From Flavimobilis soli (GTDB taxonomy: Bacteria; Actinomycetota; Actinomycetes; Actinomycetales; Cellulomonadaceae), in NCBI RefSeq assembly GCF_002564025.1, contig NZ_PDJH01000001.1:2822688-2886687 (forward strand): a stretch of DNA of 64,000 bases. The letters are read 5' to 3'. This document shows, piece after piece, positions 42,007 through 64,000 of the stretch; position 1 is the stretch's first letter, and each line of letters begins with the position of its first letter. Below the pieces are notes generated by a model. The model did not search any database and was not told the DNA's origin. It worked only from the letters and a program-made list of their open reading frames with translations. The position numbers and the translations under genes are program-made.

Positions 42007-42097
42007 CCGGGCGCCGCCGGGCCCGGTTCCTGACGCCGCGCCCCTGCGCAGGCCCTGAGCGGGCGCGCCGCCGCGGCCCCGGTCCCTGAAGCCGCGC
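42004..42097 (+). repeat. Imperfect direct repeat in the rnhA-flavodoxin gap
   Basis: Two copies of about 40 bp (42004-42041 and 42056-42097) share CGGGCGC...CCGG(T)(T/C)CCTGA(C/A)GCCGCGC with small indels. The 202-bp gap holds no gene I can support. Confidence 0.5.
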
Positions 42098-42208
42098 GTC
42101 GTGCCGGACCGGCGACGGGACCGTGAGCGAGAACCGGGCCCAAAGTCTCTGTCTTTCCCGGGCGGCCCCGAGACATCGTGGACGTACATCTCGATGGGGA
42201 GGCGCGCG

Positions 42209-42715: not shown

Positions 42716-42779
42716 CGGTCAGCCCCGCGTACCGGTCAGGCACGCACCGCGCGAACGGTAGGCCCGCACGCGGGGACGC

Positions 42780-44267: not shown

Positions 44268-44273
44268 TCTTCG

Positions 44274-44279
44274 ATATTA
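44274..44279 (-). promoter_or_regulatory. Leaderless promoter -10 (TAATAT) of mqo
   Basis: TAATAT, the closest match to consensus in the window, lies 6 bases before the mqo ATG. Confidence 0.65.
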
Positions 44280-44404
44280 GGTGGGACGATTGGGACCTTG
44301 GGCCTTGATCTCACGACTGCATGCGTGAGAAATCCCACCCTGACCAAGATGTCACAACGGCTTGACCACGGGCCTCGCGCGCTCGTATGAGCCGATCGCG
44401 AGCC

Positions 44405-44410
44405 TAGGCT
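44405..44410 (+). promoter_or_regulatory. Leaderless promoter -10 (TAGGCT) of pip
   Basis: TAGGCT lies 6 bases before the ATG at 44417. Confidence 0.6.
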
Positions 44411-44416
44411 CGGACC

Positions 44417-45406: not shown

Positions 45407-45444
45407 GCACTTCGCGGTGCCGACGGCCCCGCGCACGTCAGGGG

Positions 45445-45469
45445 GGCGCCGCTCAGCCCGAGCGGCGCC
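45445..45469. terminator. Hairpin overlapping the ku stop
   Basis: A 10-bp perfect stem GGCGCCGCTC / GAGCGGCGCC with an AGCCC loop contains the ku stop codon. It may end both pip and ku transcripts. Confidence 0.55.
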
Positions 45470-46256: not shown

Positions 46257-46300
46257 GGTCTCAGTGTGCGACGTTTCTGCCGAGGTCGCAGGATGGAGCA

Positions 46301-48985
46301 ATGGCGCGCACCACCACGGTCGAGGTCGACGGGCGGTCCCTGCGTGTCACGAACCTCGACAAGGTCATCTACCCGGTCACGGGCACGACCAAGGGCGAGG
46401 TCATCGACTACTACCTGGCGATCGCGCCCGTGATGATCCCGCACGTCGCCGGCCGTCCGGTGACGCGCAAGCGGTGGGTGAACGGCGTCGGCACGGCCGA
46501 CGAGCCGGGGCAGGTCTTCTTCGAGAAGAACCTCGCCGCGTCAGCGCCACGCTGGGTGCACCGCCACGACCTCGCGCACAGCGACCACACGAACACCTAC
46601 CCTCTCGTCGAGGAGCAGGACGGCGCCGCGACCCTCGCGTGGTTCGCGCAGCTCGCCGCGCTCGAGGTGCACGTGCCGCAGTGGCGCTTCGCGGACGACA
46701 CGACGTCGCGCGGCAAGGTCGTGCACCATCCCGACCGGATGGTCCTCGACCTCGACCCTGGCCCGGGCGCGGGACTGCCCGAGTGCGTCGCGGTCGCGCG
46801 GCTGTGCCGCGAGATCGTCTCCGGCATGGGCCTCGACCTCGTCCCCGTGACGAGCGGCTCGAAGGGCATCCACCTCTACGCGCGGCTCGACGGGACGCTC
46901 GCGAGCGACGACGTGTCCGCCGTCGCGCACGAGCTCGCGCGGTCGCTCGAGGCGGACCACCCCGACCTCGTCGTGAGCGACATGAAGAAGTCCCTGCGCA
47001 AGGGGCGCGTCCTCGTCGACTGGAGCCAGAACAGCGGCAACAAGACGACCGTCGCGCCGTACTCGCTGCGCGGCCGCGAACGCCCCGCGGTCGCGGCGCC
47101 TCGCACGTGGGACGAGCTCGACGACGACCTCACACAGCTCGGGCCGCACGAGGTTCTCGACCGTGTCGCCCGCCTCGGCGACCCGATGGCCGTCGCGGGG
47201 ACGGGGGAGGGCGCCGAGGACCGGCTCGCGCAGTACCGCGCCAAGCGCGACGAGGCGCGCACGCCCGAGCCGTTCACGTCGTCGCGTCGCGATGGCGACG
47301 GCCGCCCGACGTTCGTCATCCAGGACCACCACGCGAGCCGCCACCATCACGACTTCCGCCTCGAGCACGACGGCGTGCTGCTCAGCTGGGCGCTGCCGCG
47401 CCTGACGCCGTCGAGCACCGGTCGCAACAACCTCGCGGTCCAGACCGAGGACCACCCCCTCGACTACGGCTCGTTCGAGGGCACCATCCCCAAGGGCGAG
47501 TACGGGGCGGGCACCGTGACGATCTGGGACGCCGGGACGTACGAGGCCGAGAAGATGCGCGACGACGAGATCATCGTCGAGCTCGCAGGGCGCCCAGACG
47601 GAGGGCTCGCGAACGACGGCGGCCCGCAGCCGCCGATGTTCGTGCTCATCCGCACGGACGCGGAGAAGCGGCAGTGGCTCATCCACCGCATGGACAAGCG
47701 CAAGCACCTCGAGTCGCTGCGTCGCCGGGGGCTGAAGCCGGGGCGGAGCGAGGACGACGCGGCCGACGGCGCGGCGAAGGACGGCGAGGCGAGGGAAGGC
47801 GCCGCGCAGGAAGGCGCGGCGAAGGAAGGCGAGGCGAAGGACGGCGTCGCGAAGGGCGCGACGACCGGCCGCACCTCGGGCAAGGCAGCGACGCGCGCCG
47901 CGAAGGGCGGTGCGCACGGAGGTGACGAAGTCGCCGTCGCGGGCGGCGACGAGCGCGGCAGCACTGCACACGTCGCCGCCGCCGCGCCGTCTGACCTGCC
48001 GCAGGACGTCTCGCCGATGCTCGCGTCGTCGACCGACGCCGTCGCGCGCCGGGACCTCGCCCGCGCGGGCACGGACGACAGCCCGTGGGTGCTCGAGATG
48101 AAGTGGGACGGCATCCGCGCGATCCTCTCGGTCGACCCGGCCGCGAGGACGTGGTCCGTGCGCACCCGCGGCGGGCACGACGTGACGGCGGGCTACCCCG
48201 AGCTCGCCGAGATCCTCGACCGCGTGCACGTCCCTGCCGTCCTCGACGGCGAGATCATCGCCCCCGGCCCGGACGGCACGCCCGAGTTCGGACGCCTCCA
48301 GACCCGCCTGGGGCTGACCGCCCCCCGCGACGTCGAGCGCGCCCGCCGCGCCGCGCCCGTCGAGCTCGTGCTGTTCGACGTCCTGCACGCGGGAGGGCAA
48401 GACCTGACCTCGCTGCCGTACTCGCAGCGGCGCGAGGCGCTCGAGATGGTGGTCGACGCGGGCGGGACGATCCAGGTGCCCGACGCCGTCGCGCTCCCGC
48501 TCGACGAGGCGCTCGCGGTCTCGGAGAAGCTCGGGCTCGAGGGCGTCGTCGCAAAGCGTCGCGACTCCGCGTACCGGCCCGGGGTTCGGTCGACGGACTG
48601 GCGCAAGATCAAGCACGCGCAGCACACGGACGTCGTCGTCGTGGGATGGCGGCCGGGGCGCGGCGAGCGCGCAGGGTCGATCGGCTCGCTCCTCGTCGTG
48701 ACGCGCACGCCCGACGGCCTGCGGTACGCAGGCCGCGTCGGCGCGGGACTGTCCGACCGTGACCTCGCGAGGCTCGAGAAGAAGATCGCGGCGCTCGCTG
48801 CGGACGAGCCGATCGTCGACGACGTCCCCGCGGCCGAGTCGCGCGACGCCCGCTGGTTGTCGCGGGGACTCGCCGCCGAGGTCGAGCACGGTGGCTGGAC
48901 GGGCAGCAAGCGGCTGCGCCACCCCGTGTGGCGAGGCCTGCGCCCCGACCTGGCGTCGTCGCCCGACGGGACCGTCGACGCCTGA
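46301..48985 (+). CDS. ligD: Multifunctional ATP-dependent DNA ligase LigD (polymerase, phosphoesterase, ligase)
   Basis: The 894-aa protein has the domains in order: primase-polymerase at about 10-290 with DLD at 150-152 (VLDLDPGPGA), 3'-phosphoesterase at about 325-490 with FVIQDHHASRHHHDFRLEHD, and ATP-dependent ligase at about 565-894 with the lysine in EMKWDGIRA (Lys601) and downstream EGVVAKR. This is the mycobacterial order Pol-PE-Lig. With Ku it repairs double-strand breaks. A disordered linker at about 490-560 contains 5-residue repeats. The gene ends 6 bases before a convergent gene. Confidence 0.95.
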   Translation: MARTTTVEVDGRSLRVTNLDKVIYPVTGTTKGEVIDYYLAIAPVMIPHVAGRPVTRKRWVNGVGTADEPGQVFFEKNLAASAPRWVHRHDLAHSDHTNTYPLVEEQDGAATLAWFAQLAALEVHVPQWRFADDTTSRGKVVHHPDRMVLDLDPGPGAGLPECVAVARLCREIVSGMGLDLVPVTSGSKGIHLYARLDGTLASDDVSAVAHELARSLEADHPDLVVSDMKKSLRKGRVLVDWSQNSGNKTTVAPYSLRGRERPAVAAPRTWDELDDDLTQLGPHEVLDRVARLGDPMAVAGTGEGAEDRLAQYRAKRDEARTPEPFTSSRRDGDGRPTFVIQDHHASRHHHDFRLEHDGVLLSWALPRLTPSSTGRNNLAVQTEDHPLDYGSFEGTIPKGEYGAGTVTIWDAGTYEAEKMRDDEIIVELAGRPDGGLANDGGPQPPMFVLIRTDAEKRQWLIHRMDKRKHLESLRRRGLKPGRSEDDAADGAAKDGEAREGAAQEGAAKEGEAKDGVAKGATTGRTSGKAATRAAKGGAHGGDEVAVAGGDERGSTAHVAAAAPSDLPQDVSPMLASSTDAVARRDLARAGTDDSPWVLEMKWDGIRAILSVDPAARTWSVRTRGGHDVTAGYPELAEILDRVHVPAVLDGEIIAPGPDGTPEFGRLQTRLGLTAPRDVERARRAAPVELVLFDVLHAGGQDLTSLPYSQRREALEMVVDAGGTIQVPDAVALPLDEALAVSEKLGLEGVVAKRRDSAYRPGVRSTDWRKIKHAQHTDVVVVGWRPGRGERAGSIGSLLVVTRTPDGLRYAGRVGAGLSDRDLARLEKKIAALAADEPIVDDVPAAESRDARWLSRGLAAEVEHGGWTGSKRLRHPVWRGLRPDLASSPDGTVDA
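47774..47857 (+). repeat. 15-bp tandem repeat in the ligD linker
   Basis: About 5.6 copies of GCGAAGGACGGCGAG-like units encode A(K/R/Q)(D/E)G(E/A/V) repeats between the phosphoesterase and ligase domains. The unit keeps the frame. Confidence 0.85.
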
Positions 48986-48991
48986 GCCCGC

Positions 48992-49981
48992 TCAGCCGAT
49001 CGCGGGCGGAGCCTCCTCGCGGCGCACGGGCGGCGGCGCGGTGCCGTCGCCGAACGGACGCCCGCCGAGCGACTCACGCCCGTGCTCCGTGAGCCAGCCC
49101 GAGAGGTCCGGGCCGGCCGGGACGACGCCCGACGGGTTCACGTCGCGGTGGACCTTGTAGTAGTGGTCCTTGATCTGGCCGAAGTCGATCGTGTCGCCGA
49201 AGCCCGGCGTCTGGAACAGGTCGCGCGCGTACGCCCACAGCACCGGCATCTCGGTGAGCTTGGTCCGGTTGCACTTGAAGTGCCCGTGGTAGACGGCGTC
49301 GAACCGCACGAGCGTCGGGAACAGACGGACGTCCGCCTCGGTGATCGTGTCGCCGACGAGGTAGCGCTGCACCGCGAGCCGGTCGCTCAACCGGTCGAGC
49401 TGGGTGAACAACCGGTCGTACGCCCGCTCGTACGACTCCTGCGACGTCGAGAAGCCGCACCGGTACACGCCGTTGTTCACGTCGCGGTAGATGTCCTCGA
49501 CGAGCGCGTCGATCTCGTCGCGGCGGTCCTCCGGGTAGAGGTCGGGCGCGCCCTCGCGGTGCAGGGCCGTCCACTCGGTGCTCATGTCGAGCGTGATCTG
49601 CGCGAAGTCGTTCGTGACGACGGCGCCGTCGCGCGTGTCCACGATCGCCGGCACCGTGATGCCGCGCTCGTAGCCGGGCACCCGCTTGAAGTACGCCTCC
49701 TGCAGGCGCTCGATGCCCAGGACGGGGTCCACACCGCCCGGGTCGAGGTCGAAGGTCCATGACCGCTCGTCGTGCGTCGGGCCGCACAGGCCGAGCGAGA
49801 TCGCGTCCTCGAGGCCGAGGAGCCGGCGCACGATCAGCGTCCGGTTCGCCCACGGGCAGGCGCGAGCGGCGACGAGGCGGTAGCGACCTGCCTCGACGGG
49901 GTAGCCGTCCCTGCCATCCGCGGTGATCCGCGTGGCGATGTACCGGGCGTCACGGGTGTACTCGGGAGAGGCGTAGGTCAT
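48992..49981 (-). CDS. Glutathione-transferase-fold quinone reductase (Xi class), probably mycothiol-dependent
   Basis: The 329-aa product has the Xi-class site ARACPWANR (catalytic Cys42 in CPWA), GLCGPTHDERSWTFD, and a C-terminal helical domain with SERAYDRLF-like NGVYRCGFSTSQESYERAY and FPTLVRFDAVYHGHFKCN. In glutathione users this is glutathionyl-hydroquinone reductase (YqjG); actinobacteria use mycothiol, and their homologue is reported to act on S-mycothionyl-hydroquinones (established for related proteins). It reduces quinone-thiol adducts. TAGCCT 6 bases upstream sets the ATG as leaderless. Confidence 0.9.
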   Translation of the reverse strand: MTYASPEYTRDARYIATRITADGRDGYPVEAGRYRLVAARACPWANRTLIVRRLLGLEDAISLGLCGPTHDERSWTFDLDPGGVDPVLGIERLQEAYFKRVPGYERGITVPAIVDTRDGAVVTNDFAQITLDMSTEWTALHREGAPDLYPEDRRDEIDALVEDIYRDVNNGVYRCGFSTSQESYERAYDRLFTQLDRLSDRLAVQRYLVGDTITEADVRLFPTLVRFDAVYHGHFKCNRTKLTEMPVLWAYARDLFQTPGFGDTIDFGQIKDHYYKVHRDVNPSGVVPAGPDLSGWLTEHGRESLGGRPFGDGTAPPPVRREEAPPAIG

Positions 49982-49987
49982 CTCAGC

Positions 49988-49993
49988 AGGCTA
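49988..49993 (-). promoter_or_regulatory. Leaderless promoter -10 (TAGCCT)
   Basis: TAGCCT on the minus strand is 6 bases before the ATG at 49981. Confidence 0.55.
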
Positions 49994-50066
49994 GACGCCG
50001 GACACCGCCCGCGCCGCCCGGGACGGGCGGTTACGCTCGTGGCTGCAGCACGAAAGAGGTGGACCG

Positions 50067-51896
50067 ATGGACGAGAGCGGGCCGACGCGTACCAAGCGGT
50101 GGCGCCCGGGCCACCGGGTCCCGCCCCGATGGTTCCGGTGGTCGTCCGTCGCGCTCGCGGTCGTCCTCGTGTGCGCGCTCGTCGCGCTCGTGACCGCACG
50201 CACCGACCTGAGCCTGGGGCCGCACGAGGCCCGCTACGAGGTGACGATCGACGGTCAGGTCACGGTCGACCTAGGGCCGCTCGGCACGGTCGAGCTCGAC
50301 TCGCCCGCGCCAGCAGGGATCGGCGTGCTCGTGACGGTCAAGGAGATCCCGTCCGACCTGTCGGCGCTCGAGCAGAGCCCCACGCTCGAGGCTCTGACGC
50401 AGGACCTCCAGGCCTACCTGCAGTTCTTCGGCGGGCCGTCCGCGACGATCCAGGACGCGATCGACGGTCTTGCCCGCGACGCGCTCACGAGGTTCTTCCT
50501 GCTGCTCGTGGGAGCCGCGGCCGTGCTCGGGCTCGCGCTCCTGCTCGCCGGCTCGCCCCGCAGCCACGAGCTCGCGCACGCGTTCGCCCCGCACTCCGCG
50601 ACCGTCTCGTGGGCCGTCGTCCTGCTCGTCGTGACGCTCGTCGTGACGAACCCGTCGACGGTCGAGCGCAACACGGCGGGCAAGCGGGAGACGACCGTGT
50701 TCGCCGGCACGGCGCTCGAGGGCGCGCGCATCACCGGGCGCCTCGCCGGCGTGGTCGAGACGTACGGCGGCCAGCTCGTGAAGGTCTACGAGGACAACGA
50801 GACCTACTACGAGAGGCTCACCGCGGCAGCCGAGGCTGCGTGGGTCGAGCGTTCCGAGGCAGAGTTCGCCGCCGCCGCGCTGCGCCTGCCGCGTCCGACG
50901 GCGGACGCGGGCGACGGGGACGACGACGGCACGAGCGTGGACGACCTGGCGGGCACGGACGGCGAGACGTCGCCCGACCCGTCGACCACAGGCGACGGGG
51001 CCGTGCCGACCGACGCGACGCCGTCGGCCGAGGAGACGGCCGAGGAGCCTGCCGAGACCCCGACGGAGGAGGCCGGCGACGTCGTCACGCTCCTGCACGT
51101 CTCCGACCTGCACTGCAACGTCGGCATGGCTCCCGTCATCCGGAAGGTCGCCGAGCTCTCGGGAGCGTCGGCGATCCTCGACACGGGGGACCTCACGATG
51201 AACGGCACCGCCGTCGAGCGGTTCTGCGTGACGACGTTCGCGAACGCCGCGCCCGACGGCGCACCGTACGTCCTGGTGACCGGCAACCACGACTCGGCCG
51301 AGACGGCCAGCCAGGCGCGTGCGGCGGGCATGACCGTCCTCGACGGCGGGGTCGTCGACGTCGAGGGCGTGCGGATCCTCGGTGACAGCGACCCGAACGA
51401 GACGCGGCCCGGCATCGGGACGGCGCAGGTCAGCGAGGAGGACGTCGAGGCCTTCGCCGACCGGATGATGCAGGTCGCGTGCGGCGAGGACGAGCGGGTC
51501 GACCTGCTCATGGTCCACACCCCGCGCGCCGGCACCTCGGCGCTCAGCAGCGGCTGCGTCGCGACGCAGCTCTCCGGGCACGTGCACCGGCGCATCGGCC
51601 CCGCGCGCGTCGGGCTGGGCGTGCGGTACGTCAGCTCGACGACGGCCGGCGCGGCCGAGGGGCAGCTCACGGTCGGTCCGCTGCGCGGCGAGTCGCAGAT
51701 GACGGTGCTGCGCTTCGACCGGGAGACGCGCCGGATGCTCGACATGCGCGTCGTCGTCGCCCGCCCGGACGGCAGCGTGTCCGTAGGCGGCGCGGTCGCG
51801 TTCCCGGCGCCGCTCCCGCAGGCCGAGGCCGAAGGCGGCGCGGAGAGCGCGCCGTCACCCGACAGCGAGCAGCAGGAGCAGGACGTGCCTGAGTGA
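50067..51896 (+). CDS. Membrane-anchored metallophosphoesterase
   Basis: The 609-aa protein has helix 1 at about 28-48 (SVALAVVLVCALVALVTA), an extracytoplasmic segment, two more helices at about 140-165 and 177-198, a disordered acidic region at 280-335 (GDGDDDGTSVDD) and a C-terminal calcineurin-like phosphoesterase: HVSDLHC at 344-350, DTGDLTMNG, GNHDS at 406-410 and GHVH at 504-507. The four metal sites are present. The topology with three helices puts the enzyme domain outside the membrane if the N-terminus is inside. The substrate is unknown. A GAAAGAGGTGGACC site precedes the ATG. Confidence 0.85.
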   Translation: MDESGPTRTKRWRPGHRVPPRWFRWSSVALAVVLVCALVALVTARTDLSLGPHEARYEVTIDGQVTVDLGPLGTVELDSPAPAGIGVLVTVKEIPSDLSALEQSPTLEALTQDLQAYLQFFGGPSATIQDAIDGLARDALTRFFLLLVGAAAVLGLALLLAGSPRSHELAHAFAPHSATVSWAVVLLVVTLVVTNPSTVERNTAGKRETTVFAGTALEGARITGRLAGVVETYGGQLVKVYEDNETYYERLTAAAEAAWVERSEAEFAAAALRLPRPTADAGDGDDDGTSVDDLAGTDGETSPDPSTTGDGAVPTDATPSAEETAEEPAETPTEEAGDVVTLLHVSDLHCNVGMAPVIRKVAELSGASAILDTGDLTMNGTAVERFCVTTFANAAPDGAPYVLVTGNHDSAETASQARAAGMTVLDGGVVDVEGVRILGDSDPNETRPGIGTAQVSEEDVEAFADRMMQVACGEDERVDLLMVHTPRAGTSALSSGCVATQLSGHVHRRIGPARVGLGVRYVSSTTAGAAEGQLTVGPLRGESQMTVLRFDRETRRMLDMRVVVARPDGSVSVGGAVAFPAPLPQAEAEGGAESAPSPDSEQQEQDVPE

Positions 51897-52035
51897 CCGG
51901 TCGCGCCAACGCCGGCCGAGCTAGCCGCCGGGCGGGTCGCAGCGCCCAGGCGGCATCGGTCGAGAGGCGCTCGCGGGGCGAGACGGTACGAGGGAGGGGT
52001 CGGCAGCGTGCCCCGCGCGGTGCGACCATGGCGAC

Positions 52036-52710
52036 ATGAGCCGCCGCACCGTCATCATCCTCGTGTCCGTCGTCGTGGCAGTGCTGGTCGCGGTGCTCGC
52101 GGGCCCCCCGCTCTACTCGCGCTGGCAGGAGAGCCGCAACCCGGAGCCGATCGCGCTCACGAGCGCTCCCGTCGAGCCGCCCGCCGCCGGGCCGTTCGAG
52201 CCTGACGGGACGTGGACCGTGACGCAGGGTTCGGAAGCCGGGTACCGCGTCGAGGAGGTGCTGCGCGGCGAGGACGTGACCGTCGTCGGGCGCAGCAAGG
52301 ACGTCACGGGCGAGGTCGTGATCACCGAGGGCGAGCTGACGGCGGCGACGGTGACGGTCCAGGCGGCGACGATCGAGACAGGCGTCGGCCCCCGCGACAG
52401 CTTCCTGCGCGACACCCTCCAGACCGAGACGTTCCCGACCGCGACCTTCGAGCTCGGCGCGCCGGTCGCGCTGCCCGAGCTCACCGGGGAGCCGGTCGAC
52501 CTCGAGGTCGTCGGCACGCTCACGATCCGCGACGTCGCGCGCGAGGTGACGGTCAGCATGCAGGCGCAGCGCTCGGGCGACGGCGTGCGCGTGGGCGGGT
52601 CCATCCCGGTGACCTTCACCGACTTCGAGATCGAGGCGCCGAACCTCGGGTTCGTGCAGGTTGAGGACGCCGGGACGATCGAGATGTTGCTGGTGCTCGC
52701 CCGGGCCTGA
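52036..52710 (+). CDS. YceI-family polyisoprenoid-binding-like protein with N-terminal anchor
   Basis: The 224-aa protein has a membrane helix at about 4-24 (VIILVSVVVAVLVAVLAG) and a YceI beta-barrel domain from about 58: GTWTVTQGSEAGYRVEEVL, RDSFLRDTLQTETFPTATFEL and LTIRDVAREVTVSMQA. YceI-like domains carry isoprenoid lipids such as quinones. It is anchored outside the membrane. It is upstream of the manganese operon but separated by 131 bp, with no sign of co-regulation. Confidence 0.88.
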   Translation: MSRRTVIILVSVVVAVLVAVLAGPPLYSRWQESRNPEPIALTSAPVEPPAAGPFEPDGTWTVTQGSEAGYRVEEVLRGEDVTVVGRSKDVTGEVVITEGELTAATVTVQAATIETGVGPRDSFLRDTLQTETFPTATFELGAPVALPELTGEPVDLEVVGTLTIRDVAREVTVSMQAQRSGDGVRVGGSIPVTFTDFEIEAPNLGFVQVEDAGTIEMLLVLARA

Positions 52711-52829
52711 CCCGGGGCACGGCCCCGCGACGACGGGACGGCTGCGCGGCGCTCGGCGGGACTCATGGCGCGCGTCCCGGTGCGCCTCCTGGCCGACCCC
52801 GCGCGGATTGCGGACCGTCCGCCGCCGTG

Positions 52830-52855
52830 CAAAAGTTCGGTATGTCGAACTTTTG
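52830..52855. promoter_or_regulatory. Palindromic operator over the mntA start codon
   Basis: CAAAAGTTCG and CGAACTTTTG form a perfect 10-bp-arm palindrome around GTATGT, which contains the mntA ATG (52842). It is AT-rich against a GC-rich background and lies at the head of an operon that encodes a DtxR/MntR-type repressor, so it is the best MntR operator candidate. Confidence 0.75.
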
Positions 52856-53777
52856 GATTCGAACGTTCGAACGGGCGGCAGCCGCCGCGCTCGTGAGCGC
52901 CTCGCTCACGGCATGCAGCGGTGGCCCGGCCGCCGCGCCGCCCGCCGCCGACGACCGGCTCCACGTCGTCACGACCTTCACCGTCCTCGCCGACATGGTC
53001 GCCGAGGTGGGCGGAGCGAGGGTCCGCGTCGAGTCGATCACCAAGCCCGGCGCCGAGATCCACGGGTACGAACCGACACCCGCCGACCTCGTCCGCGCGC
53101 AGGGGGCCGACCTCGTGGTCGACAACGGGCTCGGCCTCGAGGCATGGTTCGCGCAGCTCCTCGCCGACGTCGACGCCCCGCACGTGACGGTCAGCGACGG
53201 CGTCGACCCGCAGCCGATCACCTCCGGGGAGGCCGCAGGCCACCCGAACCCCCACGCCTGGATGTCGCCGACCGCAGGCCAGACCTACGTCGCGAACATC
53301 GCCGACGCGCTCGCGAGCGCCGACCCCGAGGGCGAGGCGCTCTACTGGGCCAACGCGGCCGCGTACCGCGCGCAGCTCGAGCAGATCGCGGACGACCTCG
53401 CCGACGCCGTGGCCGCGGTCCCCGAGCCTGCGCGGCTCCTCGTGACGTGCGAGGGCGCGTTCTCCTACCTCGCGCGCGACGCGGGCCTGCGCGAGGCCTA
53501 CCTCTGGCCCGTCAACGCCGAGCAGCAGGCGACACCACGCTCGACGATCGCCGTCGTCGAGGCCGTCCGCCGCGACCGTCCGCGGGCAGTGTTCTGCGAG
53601 TCGACCGTGCCCGACGTCGCGCAGCGGCAGGTCGCCCGCGAGACAGGCACGCCGCTCGCCGGTCCGCTCTACGTCGACTCCCTGTCGGGCCCCGACGGTC
53701 CCGTGCCGAGCTACCTCGACCTGCTCCGCCACACGACGACCACGATCGTCGCCGGACTGACCGCGGAGGACCGATGA
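52842..53777 (+). CDS. mntA: Manganese ABC transporter substrate-binding lipoprotein
   Basis: The 311-aa protein has a lipoprotein signal ending SLTAC (Cys25). The metal ligands His74 (EIHGYEPTP), His138 (NPHAWMSP), Glu204 (CEGAFSYL) and Asp279 (YVDSLS) form the HHED set of manganese/iron binders such as PsaA, almost at the same numbers; zinc binders use three histidines. The start is the ATG at 52842; a GTG at 52827 is the alternative. No later start keeps the signal peptide, so the operator overlaps the first codons. It overlaps mntB by 4 bp. Confidence 0.92.
   Translation: MSNFWIRTFERAAAAALVSASLTACSGGPAAAPPAADDRLHVVTTFTVLADMVAEVGGARVRVESITKPGAEIHGYEPTPADLVRAQGADLVVDNGLGLEAWFAQLLADVDAPHVTVSDGVDPQPITSGEAAGHPNPHAWMSPTAGQTYVANIADALASADPEGEALYWANAAAYRAQLEQIADDLADAVAAVPEPARLLVTCEGAFSYLARDAGLREAYLWPVNAEQQATPRSTIAVVEAVRRDRPRAVFCESTVPDVAQRQVARETGTPLAGPLYVDSLSGPDGPVPSYLDLLRHTTTTIVAGLTAEDR
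52858..52871. promoter_or_regulatory. Second palindrome in the mntA 5' coding region
   Basis: TTCGAACGTTCGAA, a perfect 14-bp palindrome, starts 2 bases after the first operator and encodes part of mntA (IRTFER). It shares the TTCG/CGAA half-site with the first palindrome, so it may be a second binding site. Confidence 0.5.
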
Positions 53778-54679
53778 GCCCCACCCAGGCACCGCCGCCC
53801 GCCGCACCGCGAGCGCAGACGCCCGCGCTCGACGTGCGTGACCTCTCCGTCCGCTACGGCGACGTGCACGCCCTCGACTCCGCGAGCCTCACGCTGCCGC
53901 GCGGCTCCGTCACGGGGCTCGTCGGCGTCAACGGCTCCGGCAAGTCCACGCTCATGCGAGCCGTCGTCGGCGCCGTCCGCCCCACGAGCGGGACGGTCAC
54001 GATCCTCGGGCGCCCCGCTGACGTCGCGCGCCGCGAGGGCGCGCTCGCACACCTGCCGCAGAGCCAGGACGTCGACTGGACGTTCCCCGTCGTCGTGCGC
54101 GACGTCGTCGAGACCGGCAGGTACCCGCACCTCGGCCCGCTGCGGCGCCTGCGCGCGCACGACCGCGCGGTCGTCGCCGACGCCCTCGAGCGCGTCGGGC
54201 TCGCCGACCTCGCCGACCGGCAGGTCGGTCGGCTCTCGGGCGGGCAGCGCCAGCGCGTGTTCCTCGCCCGCGCGATCGCGCAGGAGGCCGACGTCCTGCT
54301 GCTCGACGAGCCGTTCTCCGGCGTCGACAAGACGCAGGAGGCCGGGATGCTCACGCTCCTGCGCGAGCTCGCCGCCGAGGGCACGTCCGTCCTCGTCTCG
54401 ACGCACGACCTGCCGACCCTGCCCGGCCTCGTCGACCAGGTCGTCCTCCTGCAGCGCCGCGTCCTGTTCGCGGGCCCGCCCGACGAGGCGTTCGCGCCCG
54501 AACGCCTCGTCGAGGCCTTCACCGGGCTCGACCTCGGCCGGATCGGGCGCCTCGGTACGCAGGCGGGGACGGGCGCGGCCGACGAGGCTGCGCCAGCGGT
54601 GGCCAGCCCGGCAGGGACCAGCGCGGCGGTGGCCAGCCCGACGAGCACCAGCCCGACGACGCGGGGGAGCGCCCGATGA
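53774..54679 (+). CDS. mntB: Manganese ABC transporter ATP-binding protein
   Basis: The 301-aa ATPase has Walker A GVNGSGKST, the Q-loop HLPQSQDVDWTFPV (typical of the metal family), signature LSGGQRQRVFLARA, Walker B VLLLDEPFSG and the switch histidine in STHDLPT. It powers uptake through MntC. ATGA overlaps on both sides couple it to mntA and mntC. After residue 250 there is a disordered Ala/Ser/Thr/Pro tail with two AVASP repeats, longer than usual. Confidence 0.93.
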   Translation: MSPTQAPPPAAPRAQTPALDVRDLSVRYGDVHALDSASLTLPRGSVTGLVGVNGSGKSTLMRAVVGAVRPTSGTVTILGRPADVARREGALAHLPQSQDVDWTFPVVVRDVVETGRYPHLGPLRRLRAHDRAVVADALERVGLADLADRQVGRLSGGQRQRVFLARAIAQEADVLLLDEPFSGVDKTQEAGMLTLLRELAAEGTSVLVSTHDLPTLPGLVDQVVLLQRRVLFAGPPDEAFAPERLVEAFTGLDLGRIGRLGTQAGTGAADEAAPAVASPAGTSAAVASPTSTSPTTRGSAR

Positions 54680-55509
54680 CCGACCTCCTCGCGACCCTCG
54701 TCGAGCCCTTCCAGTACGGCTTCCTCCAGCGGGCGTTCGCCGTCACCCTCGTCGCGTCGATCGTGTGCGCGCTGCTCTCGTGCTGGCTCGTGCTCGTCGG
54801 CTGGTCCCTCATGGGCGACGCCGTCTCGCACGCCGTCCTGCCCGGCGTCGTGCTGTCCTACCTCGCCGGCGTGCCCTTCGCCGTCGGCGCCCTCGTCTTC
54901 GGCATCGGCTCGGTCGCGCTCATCGGCACGGTCCGCGACACGTCGAAGCTCAAGGAGGACACCGCGATCGGCGTCGTCTTCACGAGCCTCTTCGCGCTCG
55001 GCCTCGTGCTCGTCTCCGTGACGCCGAGCCAGGTCGACCTCAGCCACATCCTGTTCGGCAACGTCCTCGGCGTCGCGCCCGCCGACCTCGCCCAGGTCGC
55101 CGCGCTCGGCGCGGTCGTCGTCGTCGTGCTCCTCGCCAAGCGGCGCGACCTCACGTTGTACGCGTTCGACCCTGCGCACGCCCACGCGATCGGCCTCTCG
55201 CCGCGGCGGCTCGGAGCGCTGCTGCTCGGCCTGCTCGCCGTGACCGTCGTCGTCGCGCTCCAGGCGGTCGGTGTCATCCTCGTCGTCGCGATGCTGATCA
55301 TCCCCGGCGCGACCGCCTACCTCCTGAGCGACCGCATCGACCGGATGCTCGTCGTCGCACCCCTCGTCGCGGCCGTGTGCGCCGTCGTCGGCTTCGCCGC
55401 GTCGTACGCGCTCGACGCGTCGCCCGCCGGCATGGTCGTCCTCGCGCAGGGCGTCGTGTTCACGTGCGTGCACCTCGGCACGTGGTTCACGCGCCGACGG
55501 TTATCGTGA
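54676..55509 (+). CDS. mntC: Manganese ABC transporter permease
   Basis: The 277-aa membrane protein of the ABC-3 family has about eight helices, including FLQRAFAVTLVASIVCALLS, the DAVSHAVLPGVVLSYLAG loop and DLSHILFGNVLG, typical of ZnuB/MntC. It is the pore of the MntABC importer. It starts within the mntB stop (ATGA), and ends 4 bases before mntR. From 54791 onward it lies inside the left arm of the inverted repeat; a damaged copy is in the right arm. The left copy is intact. Confidence 0.93.
   Translation: MTDLLATLVEPFQYGFLQRAFAVTLVASIVCALLSCWLVLVGWSLMGDAVSHAVLPGVVLSYLAGVPFAVGALVFGIGSVALIGTVRDTSKLKEDTAIGVVFTSLFALGLVLVSVTPSQVDLSHILFGNVLGVAPADLAQVAALGAVVVVVLLAKRRDLTLYAFDPAHAHAIGLSPRRLGALLLGLLAVTVVVALQAVGVILVVAMLIIPGATAYLLSDRIDRMLVVAPLVAAVCAVVGFAASYALDASPAGMVVLAQGVVFTCVHLGTWFTRRRLS
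55502..55507 (+). promoter_or_regulatory. Internal leaderless promoter -10 (TATCGT) of mntR
   Basis: TATCGT overlaps the mntC stop and lies 6 bases before the mntR GTG, so mntR could be made separately from the operon. Confidence 0.5.
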
Positions 55510-55513
55510 GCCT

Positions 55514-56220
55514 GTGCGCCGCGACATCGACATCACCCCCGTCGTCGAGGACTACCTCAAGGTCGTGTGGTCGGCCCAGGAGTGGTCCGACACCCCCGTG
55601 ACGACCAAGCTGCTCGCCGAGCGCCTGGGGGTCGGCGCGTCCACCGTCTCCGAGACCGTCCGCCGCATGTGCGGCATGGGCCTCCTCGAGCACGAGCGCT
55701 ACGGCGCGATCTCGTTGACCGACGAGGGACGCGACCTCGCCGTCGCCATGGTCCGCAGGCACCGCCTGCTCGAGACCTATCTCGTCGAACGCCTCGGCTA
55801 CCAGTGGGACGAGGTCCACGAGGAGGCCGAGGTGCTCGAGCATGCCGTCTCCGACCTGCTCATCGACCGCATGGACGCAGCGCTGGCCACCCCCGCCGCG
55901 ACCCGCACGGCGACCCCATCCCGACCGCGCAGGGCGAGCTCGAGCCGAGCTCTGCCCGCACGATCGACGAGCTGCCGCAGGGGGGCGCTGGCGTCGTCAC
56001 CCGCATCTCCGATGCCGACGGCGACATGCTGCGCTGGTTCGCCGACCTCGGCCTCGGCCTCGACGCCCGCGTCGAGGTCCGCGCCCGCCGCGAGTTCGCC
56101 GGAGTCGTCACCGTCGCCTGGACGGCAGACGACGGAGGACCCGAGCGGCAGGCCGACCTGGGCCTGCCTGCGGCACGCGCCGTGTGGGTCGACGTCGAGG
56201 ACGCCGAGGCGGGGGAGTGA
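55514..56220 (+). pseudogene. mntR: DtxR/MntR-family metalloregulator, frameshifted in this copy (probable sequencing error)
   Basis: The protein would be 235 aa: winged helix at 1-75 (TPVTTKLLAERLGVGASTVSE), metal-binding dimer domain to about 140 and an SH3/FeoA-like domain at 155-235 (GGAGVVTRISDADGDMLRWF). Ligand positions follow MntR, not DtxR: Asp13 (DtxR has Met10), His83, Glu106 (DtxR has Cys102), Glu109 and His110. The frame breaks after DRMDAAL because two Gs at 55885-55886 stand where the right arm has three. Restoring the G yields one frame ending at 56220. It should repress mntABC when manganese is high. Confidence 0.88.
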
Positions 56221-57458
56221 CCGCCGCGACGGACGGCCAGACGGCCGGGCTGCGGGCAGCGATGCCCGCGCTCCTCGCGCTCGCGGTCGGCGGGTTCACG
56301 ATCGGCACGACCGAGTTCGCCTCCATGGGGCTCGTCCCGCTCATCGCCGACGACCTCGCCGTCTCCGTCCCGACGGCCGGGCACGCGGTCACCGCGTACG
56401 CCGTCGGCGTCGTCGCGGGCGCGCCGACCCTCACCGTCCTCGCCGCGCGCGTCGAACGCACCCGGCTGCTGCTGATCCTCATGGGGATGTTCGTCGTCGG
56501 TCACGTGCTGTCCGCGCTCGCGGGCTCGATGGGGCTGCTGATCGTGGCCCGCTTCCTCGCCGGGCTGCCGCACGGCGCGTTCTTCGGGGTCGGTGCGGTC
56601 GTGGGCGCGGCCGTCGCAGGGCCGCGCAACCGTGGCAAGGCGATCGGCATGATGATGGCCGGCCTGACGATCGCGAACATGATCGGGGTGCCGCTCACGA
56701 CGCGCGTCGGGCAGGTCTGGGGGTGGCGCGCGACCTTCTGGATCGTCGCGGTCCTCGCGCTGCTCACGATGCTCTCGCTGTGGCGCCTCGTGCCGCGAGG
56801 CGCGGGCGGCGAGGGCTCGTCCGTGCGTGACGAGGTGCGCGCCCTGCGCAACGGCCCGCTCTGGATCGCCTTCGCCGCGGGAGCGATCGGCTTCGGCGGT
56901 CTGTTCGCGGTGTACACGTACGTCGGACCGCTCGTCACCGAGGTCGGCCGCATGTCGACGGAGAGCATCCCGCTCGTCATGGGCCTGTTCGGCCTCGCGA
57001 TGACCGTCGGGGTGCTCGTCGGCGGGCGGCTCGTCGACCGTGGCGTGCTCCGCACCGTCGTGCTCGGCTTCGTCACGACCCTCCTCGCGCTCGTCCTCCT
57101 CGGCGCAACCGGATCCGCGCCGGTGATGCTCGTCGTCGGGCTCGTCGCGCTCGGCGTGACCTCGCAGGTGCTCGGCCTCGCGATGCAGGCCCGCCTCATG
57201 GACCTGTCGCCGCTCGCGCCCTCGCTCGGGGCGGCCCTGTGCCACTCGGCGCTCAACGCGGGCAACGCGGAGGGCGCGTTCGTCGGCGGTCTCGTGATCG
57301 ACGCCGGCTGGGGCTACCTCGCGACCGCGTGGGTCGGTGCGGCTCTGACCGCCGTCGGGCTGCTCGTCGTGCTCGCCGTCGGGCGGCAGCGCACCGGCCT
57401 CCCGGTCGCGGAGCGGGTGCGTCGCAGCCTCGAGGACACGCCCGCCGACGAGGTGTGA
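56217..57458 (+). CDS. MFS transporter, DHA1-like exporter
   Basis: The 413-aa protein has 12 helices and MFS motifs: FTIGTTEFASMGLVPLIADD at helix 1, the loop ARVERTRLLLILMGMFVVG, LAGLPHGAFFGVGAVVG and GKAIGMMMAGLTIANMIGVP, as in AraJ/YdeA-type sugar or drug exporters. The GTG start overlaps the mntR stop (GTGA), so it is translationally coupled. Substrate unknown; a manganese operon position alone does not make it a metal exporter. Both arms contain the same intact frame. Confidence 0.88.
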   Translation: MTAATDGQTAGLRAAMPALLALAVGGFTIGTTEFASMGLVPLIADDLAVSVPTAGHAVTAYAVGVVAGAPTLTVLAARVERTRLLLILMGMFVVGHVLSALAGSMGLLIVARFLAGLPHGAFFGVGAVVGAAVAGPRNRGKAIGMMMAGLTIANMIGVPLTTRVGQVWGWRATFWIVAVLALLTMLSLWRLVPRGAGGEGSSVRDEVRALRNGPLWIAFAAGAIGFGGLFAVYTYVGPLVTEVGRMSTESIPLVMGLFGLAMTVGVLVGGRLVDRGVLRTVVLGFVTTLLALVLLGATGSAPVMLVVGLVALGVTSQVLGLAMQARLMDLSPLAPSLGAALCHSALNAGNAEGAFVGGLVIDAGWGYLATAWVGAALTAVGLLVVLAVGRQRTGLPVAERVRRSLEDTPADEV

Positions 57459-57537
57459 CGCCTCCAGCGGGCGTCCAGAAACGCGTGGGACCATGGTCCC
57501 GGCCGCAGCCGGGCGGCCGCCGACCGAGGAGCGTCCC

Positions 57538-58199
57538 GTGACCGACCCGACAGCCGACCACGTGCCCGACGGCGCGTCGCAGCTCGACGAGATCGACGAC
57601 GGCGTCATCGCGCCGCGCCCGCTCGCGGACCGCACCCTCGGCCGGATCCTCGTGATCCTCGGGCTCGTCGGCCTCGCGGGCTCGCTCGCCCTCGCGATCG
57701 AGCGCTATCTGTCGCTCGTCGACCCGGACCACCAGCCGACGTGCTCGATCAACGCGCTGCTCACGTGCAGCCCGGCGATGGCGTCCGACGCGGGCAGCCT
57801 GCTGGGCTTCCCCAACCCGTACATCGGCCTCGGCGCGTTCCCGGTCGTCGTGACGATCGGCGTCGTGCTCCTCGCCGTTCCCGGTATCGCGTTCCCGCGC
57901 TGGTTCTGGCGCACTTTCCTCGTCGTGGCGACGGCTGCCACGGGCCTTATCGCCTACCTCGTGTACACGAGCCTCGAGGTCCTCGTCGCGCTGTGCCCCT
58001 ACTGCATGGTCGTGTGGTTCGCGACGCTCCGATCTTCTGGTTCCTGCTCGTGCGCAACGTCCAGGACGGCCTGTTCGGCGGCAGCGCGTCGTCGGGCATC
58101 GTGCGTCAGCGCGGCCTGCTGCTCGCGGCGATGTTCGTCGCGCTGCTCGCGTGGATCGTCGTCGGCCTCGGCCCGAGCATCGCGGGCGCGTTCGCCTGA
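57538..58199 (+). pseudogene. Vitamin K epoxide reductase (VKOR)-family gene, frameshifted in this copy
   Basis: VKOR proteins reoxidise DsbA-like partners using quinone. The intact version (right arm) has 220 aa, with loop cysteines Cys69 and Cys77 (TCSINALLTC) and the active pair CPYC at 153-156, within about five helices. Here the frame breaks after VVWFATL because two Cs at 58029-58030 replace the three of the right arm. The GTG at 57538 has GAGGAG 6 bases upstream. Confidence 0.9.
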
Positions 58200-58264
58200 G
58201 CGGCTGCTCCGCGGCAGGCTGCCTGCGCCACCCGGGCGTGCGCTCGGAGGTCCCTGCGGCCCGG

Positions 58265-58270
58265 TAAACT
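58265..58270 (+). promoter_or_regulatory. Leaderless promoter -10 (TAAACT) of leuS
   Basis: TAAACT lies 7 bases before the leuS GTG at 58278; the right arm repeats it. Confidence 0.55.
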
Positions 58271-58277
58271 CGCGAGA

Positions 58278-59338
58278 GTGACTGACAAGCCCAACGTCCC
58301 GAACCAGCCTGCTCCCGCGCGCTCCGGCGCCCCGTCCCCGGAGGAGCCGCGACTGCGCTACACGCCGCAGCTCGCCGAGGAGATCGAGCTCCGCTGGCAG
58401 GACCGCTGGGCCGAGCGCGGGACGTTCTGGGCGGCCAACCCGAGCGGGCCGCTCACCGACGGCAAGGGCCGCCACGCGGACCCGGCTCGCCGAGCTTCTT
58501 CGTCATGGACATGTTCCCCTACCCCTCGGGTGCGGGCCTGCACGTCGGCCACCCGCTCGGCTACATCGCGACCGACGTCGTCGGCCGCTTCCGCCGCATG
58601 TGTGGCGACAACGTGCTGCACGCGCTCGCGTTCGACGCGTTCGGCCTGCCCGCCGAGCAGTACGCGGTCCAGACCGGTCAGCACCCGCGCATCACGACCG
58701 AGCAGAACATCGCGAACATGCAGCGCCAGCTCCGCCGCCTGGGCCTCGCCCACGACGAGCGCCGCTCCTTCGCGACGACGGACAGCGAGTACGTGCGCTG
58801 GACGCAGTGGATCTTCCTTCAGATCTTCAACTCCTGGTACGACGAGACGGCCGTGCGGCCGACGGCGGCACCGGCAAGGCCCGCCCGATCGCCGAGCTCG
58901 AGGCCGAGCTCGCCGACGGCACGCGTCCCACCCCGGACGGCACGCCGTGGGCCGAGATGGACGCCGTCGCACGCCGCCGCGTCATCGACTCCTACCGCCT
59001 CGCCTACGTCTCCGAGTCGCCCGTGAACTGGTGCCCCGGGCTGGGCACCGTCCTCGCGAACGAGGAGGTCACCGCCGACGGCCGGTCCGAGCGCGGCAAC
59101 TTCCCCGTCTTCCAGCGCAGCCTGCGCCAGTGGAACATGCGCATCACCGCGTACGCCGACCGCCTCGCGGACGACCTCGAGCTCATCGACTGGCCCGACA
59201 AGGTCAAGGCGATGCAGCGCAACTGGATCGGCCGCTCGCAGGGCGCCAAGGTCCGGTTCGACGTCCAGGGCGGCAGCGAGGTCGAGGTCTTCACGACCCG
59301 CCCCGACACCCTGTTCGGCGCGACCTCTGGTCGTCGCC
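58278..59338 (+). pseudogene. leuS: Leucyl-tRNA synthetase, 5' third, with two single-base losses
   Basis: The start [20 protein letters not shown] leads to the class I motif HVGH (89-92 in [10 protein letters not shown]) after a frameshift at 58481-58483 (CCC; right arm CCCC). A second loss is at 58859-58860 (CC; right arm CCC). The sequence then reaches [16 protein letters not shown], the start of the editing domain, and ends at the fold-back point. A complete LeuS has about 950 residues; the KMSKS part is absent from the window. Confidence 0.9.
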
Positions 59339-59455
59339 CCGAGCACCCCCGCTCGAGCGAGTCCGCGGGCTGCCGGCGCGGCGACCGCCGCGGCAGGGTG
59401 CCCGGAAGCGCCGTCGCGCGCGCGGCCGGGCCCTCGCGGCCCCTCGCGGCGGCTC
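59339..59455. other. 117-bp centre of the inverted repeat
   Basis: A very GC-rich stretch with no clear leuS coding sequence on either strand. It is where the two arms turn back. Its two halves are only weakly complementary. It may be degraded leuS sequence from a turning read. Confidence 0.6.
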
Positions 59456-60518
59456 GGCGACGACCATGAAGGTCGCGCGACAGGGTGTCGGGGCGGGTCG
59501 TGAAGACCTCGACCTCGCTGCCGCCCTGGACGTCGAACCGGACCTTGGCGCCCTGCGAGCGGCCGATCCAGTTGCGCTGCATCGCCTTGACCTTGTCGGG
59601 CCAGTCGATGAGCTCGAGGTCGTCCGCGAGGCGGTCGGCGTACGCGGTGATGCGCATGTTCCACTGGCGCAGGCTGCGCTGGAAGACGGGGAAGTTGCCG
59701 CGCTCGGACCGGCCGTCGGCGGTGACCTCCTCGTTCGCGAGGACGGTGCCCAGCCCGGGGCACCAGTTCACGGGCGACTCGGAGACGTAGGCGAGGCGGT
59801 AGGAGTCGATGACGCGGCGGCGTGCGACGGCGTCCATCTCGGCCCACGGCGTGCCGTCCGGGGTGGGACGCGTGCCGTCGGCGAGCTCGGCCTCGAGCTC
59901 GGCGATCGGGCGGGCCTTGCCGGTGCCGCCGTCGGGCCGCACGGCCGTCTCGTCGTACCAGGAGTTGAAGATCTGAAGGAAGATCCACTGCGTCCAGCGC
60001 ACGTACTCGCTGTCCGTCGTCGCGAAGGAGCGGCGCTCGTCGTGGGCGAGGCCCAGGCGGCGGAGCTGGCGCTGCATGTTCGCGATGTTCTGCTCGGTCG
60101 TGATGCGCGGGTGCTGACCGGTCTGGACCGCGTACTGCTCGGCGGGCAGGCCGAACGCGTCGAACGCGAGCGCGTGCAGCACGTTGTCGCCACACATGCG
60201 GCGGAAGCGGCCGACGACGTCGGTCGCGATGTAGCCGAGCGGGTGGCCGACGTGCAGGCCCGCACCCGAGGGGTAGGGGAACATGTCCATGACGAAGAAG
60301 CTCGGCGAGCCGGGGTCCGCGTGGCGGCCCTTGCCGTCGGTGAGCGGCCCGCTCGGGTTGGCCGCCCAGAACGTCCCGCGCTCGGCCCAGCGGTCCTGCC
60401 AGCGGAGCTCGATCTCCTCGGCGAGCTGCGGCGTGTAGCGCAGTCGCGGCTCCTCCGGGGACGGGGCGCCGGAGCGCGCGGGAGCAGGCTGGTTCGGGAC
60501 GTTGGGCTTGTCAGTCAC
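59456..60518 (-). CDS. leuS: Leucyl-tRNA synthetase, 5' third, mirror copy
   Basis: From GTG 60518 this copy reads cleanly for about 345 residues, including [24 protein letters not shown] at 89-92 and [15 protein letters not shown], until DTLxRD near 59474, where small losses break it. It corrects both frameshifts of the left copy. The rest of leuS is missing here too. I treat it as the same gene as 58278-59338, read from the other strand. Confidence 0.9.
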
Positions 60519-60596
60519 TCTCGCGAGTTTACCGGGCCGCAGGGACCTCCGAGCGCACGCCCGGGTGGCGCAGGCAGCCTGCCGCGGAGCAGCCGC

Positions 60597-61259
60597 TCAG
60601 GCGAACGCGCCCGCGATGCTCGGGCCGAGGCCGACGACGATCCACGCGAGCAGCGCGACGAACATCGCCGCGAGCAGCAGGCCGCGCTGACGCACGATGC
60701 CCGACGACGCGCTGCCGCCGAACAGGCCGTCCTGGACGTTGCGCACGAGCAGGAACCAGAAGATCGGGAGCGTCGCGAACCACACGACCATGCAGTAGGG
60801 GCACAGCGCGACGAGGACCTCGAGGCTCGTGTACACGAGGTAGGCGATAAGGCCCGTGGCAGCCGTCGCCACGACGAGGAAAGTGCGCCAGAACCAGCGC
60901 GGGAACGCGATACCGGGAACGGCGAGGAGCACGACGCCGATCGTCACGACGACCGGGAACGCGCCGAGGCCGATGTACGGGTTGGGGAAGCCCAGCAGGC
61001 TGCCCGCGTCGGACGCCATCGCCGGGCTGCACGTGAGCAGCGCGTTGATCGAGCACGTCGGCTGGTGGTCCGGGTCGACGAGCGACAGATAGCGCTCGAT
61101 CGCGAGGGCGAGCGAGCCCGCGAGGCCGACGAGCCCGAGGATCACGAGGATCCGGCCGAGGGTGCGGTCCGCGAGCGGGCGCGGCGCGATGACGCCGTCG
61201 TCGATCTCGTCGAGCTGCGACGCGCCGTCGGGCACGTGGTCGGCTGTCGGGTCGGTCAC
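60597..61259 (-). CDS. VKOR-family protein, mirror copy (intact frame)
   Basis: This copy encodes the full 220 aa with Cys69, Cys77 and CPYC at 153-156, ending GLGPSIAGAFA. It shows what the 57538 copy should be. VKOR enzymes sit in the membrane and regenerate disulfide-forming proteins of the envelope with quinone as acceptor; the family call is from the cysteine pattern and helices. Most likely not an extra gene. Confidence 0.88.
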   Translation of the reverse strand: MTDPTADHVPDGASQLDEIDDGVIAPRPLADRTLGRILVILGLVGLAGSLALAIERYLSLVDPDHQPTCSINALLTCSPAMASDAGSLLGFPNPYIGLGAFPVVVTIGVVLLAVPGIAFPRWFWRTFLVVATAATGLIAYLVYTSLEVLVALCPYCMVVWFATLPIFWFLLVRNVQDGLFGGSASSGIVRQRGLLLAAMFVALLAWIVVGLGPSIAGAFA

Positions 61260-61338
61260 GGGACGCTCCTCGGTCGGCGGCCGCCCGGCTGCGGCCGGGA
61301 CCATGGTCCCACGCGTTTCTGGACGCCCGCTGGAGGCG

Positions 61339-62580
61339 TCACACCTCGTCGGCGGGCGTGTCCTCGAGGCTGCGACGCACCCGCTCCGCGACCGGGAGGC
61401 CGGTGCGCTGCCGCCCGACGGCGAGCACGACGAGCAGCCCGACGGCGGTCAGAGCCGCACCGACCCACGCGGTCGCGAGGTAGCCCCAGCCGGCGTCGAT
61501 CACGAGACCGCCGACGAACGCGCCCTCCGCGTTGCCCGCGTTGAGCGCCGAGTGGCACAGGGCCGCCCCGAGCGAGGGCGCGAGCGGCGACAGGTCCATG
61601 AGGCGGGCCTGCATCGCGAGGCCGAGCACCTGCGAGGTCACGCCGAGCGCGACGAGCCCGACGACGAGCATCACCGGCGCGGATCCGGTTGCGCCGAGGA
61701 GGACGAGCGCGAGGAGGGTCGTGACGAAGCCGAGCACGACGGTGCGGAGCACGCCACGGTCGACGAGCCGCCCGCCGACGAGCACCCCGACGGTCATCGC
61801 GAGGCCGAACAGGCCCATGACGAGCGGGATGCTCTCCGTCGACATGCGGCCGACCTCGGTGACGAGCGGTCCGACGTACGTGTACACCGCGAACAGACCG
61901 CCGAAGCCGATCGCTCCCGCGGCGAAGGCGATCCAGAGCGGGCCGTTGCGCAGGGCGCGCACCTCGTCACGCACGGACGAGCCCTCGCCGCCCGCGCCTC
62001 GCGGCACGAGGCGCCACAGCGAGAGCATCGTGAGCAGCGCGAGGACCGCGACGATCCAGAAGGTCGCGCGCCACCCCCAGACCTGCCCGACGCGCGTCGT
62101 GAGCGGCACCCCGATCATGTTCGCGATCGTCAGGCCGGCCATCATCATGCCGATCGCCTTGCCACGGTTGCGCGGCCCTGCGACGGCCGCGCCCACGACC
62201 GCACCGACCCCGAAGAACGCGCCGTGCGGCAGCCCGGCGAGGAAGCGGGCCACGATCAGCAGCCCCATCGAGCCCGCGAGCGCGGACAGCACGTGACCGA
62301 CGACGAACATCCCCATGAGGATCAGCAGCAGCCGGGTGCGTTCGACGCGCGCGGCGAGGACGGTGAGGGTCGGCGCGCCCGCGACGACGCCGACGGCGTA
62401 CGCGGTGACCGCGTGCCCGGCCGTCGGGACGGAGACGGCGAGGTCGTCGGCGATGAGCGGGACGAGCCCCATGGAGGCGAACTCGGTCGTGCCGATCGTG
62501 AACCCGCCGACCGCGAGCGCGAGGAGCGCGGGCATCGCTGCCCGCAGCCCGGCCGTCTGGCCGTCCGTCGCGGCGGTCAC
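61339..62580 (-). CDS. MFS transporter, mirror copy
   Basis: The 413-aa product appears the same as that of 56217-57458, from VTAATDGQTAGL to RRSLEDTPADEV. No frame break was seen. It is listed for completeness and should be counted once with the left copy. Confidence 0.88.
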   Translation of the reverse strand: MTAATDGQTAGLRAAMPALLALAVGGFTIGTTEFASMGLVPLIADDLAVSVPTAGHAVTAYAVGVVAGAPTLTVLAARVERTRLLLILMGMFVVGHVLSALAGSMGLLIVARFLAGLPHGAFFGVGAVVGAAVAGPRNRGKAIGMMMAGLTIANMIGVPLTTRVGQVWGWRATFWIVAVLALLTMLSLWRLVPRGAGGEGSSVRDEVRALRNGPLWIAFAAGAIGFGGLFAVYTYVGPLVTEVGRMSTESIPLVMGLFGLAMTVGVLVGGRLVDRGVLRTVVLGFVTTLLALVLLGATGSAPVMLVVGLVALGVTSQVLGLAMQARLMDLSPLAPSLGAALCHSALNAGNAEGAFVGGLVIDAGWGYLATAWVGAALTAVGLLVVLAVGRQRTGLPVAERVRRSLEDTPADEV

Positions 62581-63282
62581 TCCCCCGCCTCGGCGTCCTC
62601 GACGTCGACCCACACGGCGCGTGCCGCAGGCAGGCCCAGGTCGGCCTGCCGCTCGGGTCCTCCGTCGTCTGCCGTCCAGGCGACGGTGACGACTCCGGCG
62701 AACTCGCGGCGGGCGCGGACCTCGACGCGGGCGTCGAGGCCGAGGCCGAGGTCGGCGAACCAGCGCAGCATGTCGCCGTCGGCATCGGAGATGCGGGTGA
62801 CGACGCCAGCGCCCCCCTGCGGCAGCTCGTCGATCGTGCGGCAGAGCTCGGCTCGAGCTCGCCCTGCGCGGTCGGGATGGGGTCGCCGTGCGGGTCGCGG
62901 CGGGGGTGGCCCAGCGCTGCGTCCATGCGGTCGATGAGCAGGTCGGAGACGGCATGCTCGAGCACCTCGGCCTCCTCGTGGACCTCGTCCCACTGGTAGC
63001 CGAGGCGTTCGACGAGATAGGTCTCGAGCAGGCGGTGCCTGCGGACCATGGCGACGGCGAGGTCGCGTCCCTCGTCGGTCAACGAGATCGCGCCGTAGCG
63101 CTCGTGCTCGAGGAGGCCCATGCCGCACATGCGGCGGACGGTCTCGGAGACGGTGGACGCGCCGACCCCCAGGCGCTCGGCGAGCAGCTTGGTCGTCACG
63201 GGGGTGTCGGACCACTCCTGGGCCGACCACACGACCTTGAGGTAGTCCTCGACGACGGGGTGATGTCGATGTCGCGGCGCAC
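62577..63282 (-). pseudogene. mntR: MntR-like regulator, mirror copy with two frameshifts
   Basis: This copy has lost one base in the fifth-codon region run (GGGG at 63257-63260; left arm five) and one at 62840-62841 (GG; left arm three). It keeps the base missing from the left copy (MDAALGHPRRDPHGDPIP). The two copies together define a single intact 235-aa gene: 706 bp here, 707 on the left, 708 after correction. Confidence 0.88.
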
Positions 63283-63286
63283 AGGC

Positions 63287-64000
63287 TCACGATAACCGTC
63301 GGCGCGTGAACCACGTGCCGAGGTGCACGCACGTGAACACGACGCCCTGCGCGAGGACGACCATGCCGGCGGGCGACGCGTCGAGCGCGTACGACGCGGC
63401 GAAGCCGACGACGGCGCACACGGCCGCGACGAGGGGTGCGACGACGAGCATCCGGTCGATGCGGTCGCTCAGGAGGTAGGCGGTCGCGCCGGGGATGATC
63501 AGCATCGCGACGACGAGGATGACACCGACCGCCTGGAGCGCGACGACGACGGTCACGGCGAGCAGGCCGAGCAGCAGCGCTCCGAGCCGCGCGGCGAGAG
63601 GCCGATCGCGTGGCGTGCGCAGGGTCGAACGCGTACAACGTGAGGTCGCGCGCTTGGCGAGGAGCACGACGACGACGACCGCGCCGAGCGCGGCGACCTG
63701 GGCGAGGTCGGCGGCGCGACGCCGAGGACGTTGCCGAACAGGATGTGGCTGAGGTCGACCTGGCTCGGCGTCACGGAGACGAGCACGAGGCCGAGCGCGA
63801 AGAGGCTCGTGAAGACGACGCCGATCGCGGTGTCCTCTTGAGCTTCGACGTGTCGCGGACCGTGCCGATGAGCGCGACCGAGCCGATGCCGAAGACGAGG
63901 GCGCCGACGGCGAAGGGCACGCCGGCGAGGTAGGACAGCACGACGCCGGGCAGGACGGCGTGCGAGACGGCGTCGCCCATGAGGGACCAGCCGACGAGCA
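63287..64000 (-). pseudogene. mntC: mntC permease, mirror copy, partial and frameshifted
   Basis: The last 80 or so codons (from GLLAVTVVVALQAVGVILVV) are in frame, but upstream there are at least four single-base losses, for example within TCCTC at 63835-63838 and in GGCGGCG near 63711. The first 38 codons lie beyond the window. It has the densest errors of the mirror copy. Confidence 0.88.

Follow-up and report, generated by a model that had tools for sequence, protein, structure and literature searches.

The single contig of the Flavimobilis soli assembly (C1) comprises 2,886,687 bases, and its final 64 kb (C1:2822688-2886687) form the stretch analysed here, hereafter the window; coordinates preceded by C1: refer to the contig, all others to the window. 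Two mirror-image arms of about 4.52 kb each (54791-59314 and 59480-64000) lie at its far end, and 11 ungapped pairs at 99-100% complementarity connect them. A gapped alignment of the two arms contains 0 mismatches and 11 single-base indels, a similarity far beyond chance. The first-pass annotation had described an inverted repeat of about 4.5 kb extending to the first third of leuS, which this alignment bears out, around a centre of 117 bp, which has to be corrected to the 165 nt that separate the arms (59315-59479). Measured against an intact copy near the contig start, the unaligned core is the 94-nt turn listed in Table 1.

The outer edge of the left arm falls inside a metal ABC permease gene (54676-55509), for which SloB- and AztB-type permeases are the top NCBIfam models, each scoring under its cut-off. 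This edge had previously been placed within mntC; its position inside a gene of this transporter holds, but the name is apt only in those nomenclatures in which mntC denotes a permease, as it does in some. The regulator gene of the arm is one that we take to be MntR-type, and the VKOR family protein is assigned by an NCBIfam match that is likewise under cut-off. For the MFS transporter (55842-57458), the top NCBIfam model is the Cmx/CmrA chloramphenicol efflux family, at 297.5 bits against a curated cut-off of 400 bits. As the window is the final 64 kb of the contig, the outer edge of the right arm is the last base of the contig, and this coincidence deprives it of biological meaning. The remainder of leuS had been reported as absent from both arms, correctly so, since in each of them leuS breaks off at about codon 363 of 975.

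Table 1 Features at the end of the Flavimobilis soli contig (window positions).
Feature	Position	Strand	Description
Untrimmed circular overlap	40726..59361	+	Direct repeat of C1:1-18635, 99.9% identity, 0 mismatches, 17 indel events
Left arm	54791..59314	+	ABC permease, presumed MntR-type regulator, MFS transporter, VKOR family protein, first third of leuS
leuS head, left copy	58278..59361	+	Broken off by the fold-back
Turn	59362..59455	-	Resembles leuS C1:18638-18735; 18-nt exact match 59377-59394 = C1:18696-18713
Fold-back arm	59456..64000	-	Reverse complement of C1:14058-18611, 99.8% identity, 0 mismatches, runs to the contig end

A search of the whole genome revealed one more strong match, the third copy, close to the contig start at C1:17268-18635; the seven other matches are all short (at most 57.2 bits). 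In this region, outside the window, leuS is complete: it has 975 codons (C1:17547-20474, with its stop at C1:20474) and matches TIGR00396 in a single frame at 864.2 bits (cut-off 548.4). Leaving aside the two window pieces, other leuS-family matches in the genome do not exceed 64.6 bits, and this weakness indicates that the chromosome has one normal leuS. The leuS head likewise has one strong match in each of 5 same-genus genomes, all other matches there being at or below 61.7 bits. A complete leuS elsewhere had been set down beforehand as part of what would count against an artefact; the gene does exist, but as the contig-start side of an overlap between the contig ends it supports an artefact instead. 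In Sanguibacter hominis, the VKOR family gene and leuS are separated by about 3.9 kb of extra sequence relative to Flavimobilis soli (L116, about 711-4635).

Alignment of the window to the opening 40 kb of C1 gave two matches with E values no higher than 1e-10. The end of the contig repeats its start directly and without a single mismatch, as an untrimmed circular overlap would. The circle would naturally close after window position 40725 (C1:2,863,412) and measure about 2.863 Mb. A 2001-base query spanning the join at 40725/40726 (window 39726-41726) was run against 19 genomes, among them that of Flavimobilis soli itself, and was matched end to end, at 80%, in one of the 18 others, S. hominis, whilst in the remaining 17 the match was partial or absent; in the remaining four same-genus genomes, the right half of the query was matched in parts only, with short matches elsewhere. 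Window positions 38657-41998, with the join inside them, form one 3.3-kb alignment to S. hominis ATCC BAA-789 (82%), so that end and start of the contig are contiguous in this related genome. Being colinear there, the join behaves like a genuine circular closure. The only dnaA copy lies mid-contig on the minus strand (C1:1783222-1784586); the assembly was thus not rotated to dnaA, and the contig does not begin at the dnaA end of the chromosome. For Canu and NextDenovo, an overlap of thousands of bases between contig start and contig end is described as usual (PMC6966772), and the present case resembles such long-read assemblies of circular genomes in the direct repetition of the contig start over thousands of bases, but differs from them in that the overlap continues into a fold-back.

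These data bear directly on the idea that the contig ends in the hairpin telomere of a linear chromosome, where reads would turn at the tip and continue on the complementary strand. Hairpin telomeres of linear bacterial chromosomes give a palindrome at the contig end, which is what is seen here. However, the turn sits inside leuS, an essential gene; the same sequence continues straight through leuS at the contig start as far as C1:20474, so that a continuation past the turn is present elsewhere in the genome; and the contig ends overlap directly, with a join that is colinear in S. hominis. We consider a telomere extremely improbable.

A genuine recent inverted duplication, leaving a truncated leuS beside the intact one, had also been entertained in the first-pass annotation. 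The repeat is perfect save for single-base indels, and the cell would be viable given the intact leuS. Such an event would, however, also require a real, mismatch-free direct duplication of 18.6 kb sited at both contig ends, and the fold-back would have to stop precisely at the last base of the contig. The proposal finds no support, as the contig end directly repeats the contig start, where the third copy is intact. The overlap between the contig ends and the undisturbed copy at the contig start led us to reject both the real inverted duplication and the hairpin telomere; the duplication, too, is very improbable.

The distribution of indels speaks further to this point. Relative to the start copy, the direct overlap carries 17 indel events and the fold-back arm 9, and 21 of these 26 are single G or C bases. 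Seven of the overlap events fall at C1:831-1408, one at C1:7589 and nine within the last 3.5 kb before the turn; in the fold-back arm, each of the nine consists of bases missing from the arm. We compared 14 of the 17 left-copy events with S. hominis, dropping one that lies beside a listed event and two at the break, and all nine events of the right arm. Of the 18 events by which the arms differ from the start copy, this covers 16 (7/9 left, 9/9 right), and at all 16 the start copy agrees with S. hominis in net length whilst the arm copy departs from it, contrary to what an inverted duplication would lead one to expect. The agreement is gap-free at 15 of them; at the remaining one, at 58481, the start copy needs two compensating gaps against S. 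hominis, and the left arm attains the higher local score (143, against 136 for the start copy), yet its net length is off.

The start copy is not free of departures either. At a single-base indel between 48321 and C1:7589, the end copy fits S. hominis and the start copy departs from it; the reading frame of DNA ligase D stays open for 922 codons in the former and for 729 in the latter. Six events close to the contig start were also set against S. hominis: one clearly favours the end copy, and the other five receive no assignment, S. hominis being divergent there. The indel pattern is that of ordinary consensus errors in both copies rather than evolutionary divergence, which would have added substitutions, and none are present.

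The turn itself offers a view of how the contig came to double back. The left copy ends at C1:18635 and the right copy begins at C1:18611. Read on the minus strand, the turn aligns to leuS with a local score of 47, a score reached by none of 500 dinucleotide-preserving shuffles (mean 38.1), although the margin over the best shuffle (46) is small. On the plus strand, the match to leuS does not stand out, its score being reached by 92 of 500 shuffles, and no 16-mer or longer is common to the turn and the 54 kb of window used as background. The turn is also asymmetric, in that an outgoing reading of leuS C1:18636-18735 is mostly missing. Judged from these alignments, the turn has the look of the following 100 or so bases of leuS, read with many errors on the returning strand.

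One possible trigger would be a short inverted repeat through which the strand primed itself at the turn, but this is unsupported: the best complementarity between the two sides is 8 nt, and complementarity of at least 8 nt is commonplace, occurring in 32 of 95 comparable stretches at the contig start. The leuS stretch at the turn is, as DNA, more stable than 200 shuffles (z -3.2), and stable folding of this kind allows for a hairpin as trigger without showing one.

Taken together, these observations make it almost certain that the mirror repeat is an assembly artefact, however the molecule folded, and not a feature of the chromosome. A chimaeric read or a fold-back at the contig end had been the preferred explanation from the outset, and it is now backed by the position at the contig end, the terminal overlap and the undisturbed third copy with its complete leuS. 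We envisage two layers. The first would be the linear assembly, with an untrimmed end, of a circular chromosome of about 2.863 Mb, so that the last part of the contig repeats the first 18.6 kb. In the second, the read or reads at the contig end would have run into leuS, turned near codons 363-396 and gone back along the complementary strand for 4.5 kb, their end becoming the contig end. The fold-back probably derives from a single molecule, and we infer that it arose in library preparation or sequencing and not in the cell.

The arrangement agrees with the definition of fold-back reads in PMC12870357, in which the second segment of a read maps back to the locus of the first, on the opposite strand and no more than about 200 bases away; it also shares with the long-read artefact a short turn, and differs in being known from a contig and not from a raw read. 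Such an artefact would be carried by few palindromic reads, with other reads passing straight through leuS, and the intact copy at the contig start is indirect evidence of this. Fold-backs are put there at approximately 0.55-0.6% of ONT gDNA reads and are attributed, in the opinion of the authors, to library preparation, whilst three PacBio samples are described in which HiFi data contain virtually none (PMC12870357). Poor base calls have been described for nanopore inverted duplicates (PMC7229812), but eight ONT reads presented in PMC12870357 have breakpoints without signal noise; given these reads and the near absence of fold-backs from the HiFi samples, not every platform would typically give a turn rich in errors.

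A variant of the same explanation holds that a PacBio SMRTbell adapter was missed, so that template and complement passes were joined in one read. We searched the window for the adapter ends, using a pattern that we take to be correct and allowing up to 3 mismatches but no indels, and found nothing adapter-like, though a badly read adapter could escape such a search; the turn, moreover, resembles leuS instead. Single-base indels would fit such data, and palindromic reads of this origin are described in PMC6218980, where an unamplified PacBio control is given as containing 0.5% palindromic reads. We regard a missed adapter as unlikely. It is also conceivable, albeit with very low probability, that in a few of the cells or molecules of the culture the chromosome was broken in leuS and bore a folded-back end or an inverted duplication there, and that the assembler captured this variant at the contig end, the majority chromosome being the normal circle.

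With an assembly artefact as the preferred reading, the value of the observation is one of quality control only. About 23.3 kb of the contig (40726-64000) are redundant, made up of 18,636 bases of direct overlap, 94 of turn and 4,545 of fold-back, which swells the genome to 2.887 Mb, against about 2.863 Mb for the circle. When gene content or copy number is compared between genomes, false duplicates and breaks would appear, namely two extra leuS fragments and duplicated transporter genes. The quality figures for the genome (completeness 100%, contamination 0.68%) flag nothing and do not expose the redundancy. Second copies of the DNA ligase D gene and of the metal ABC transporter gene set are likewise produced by the 18.6-kb overlap.
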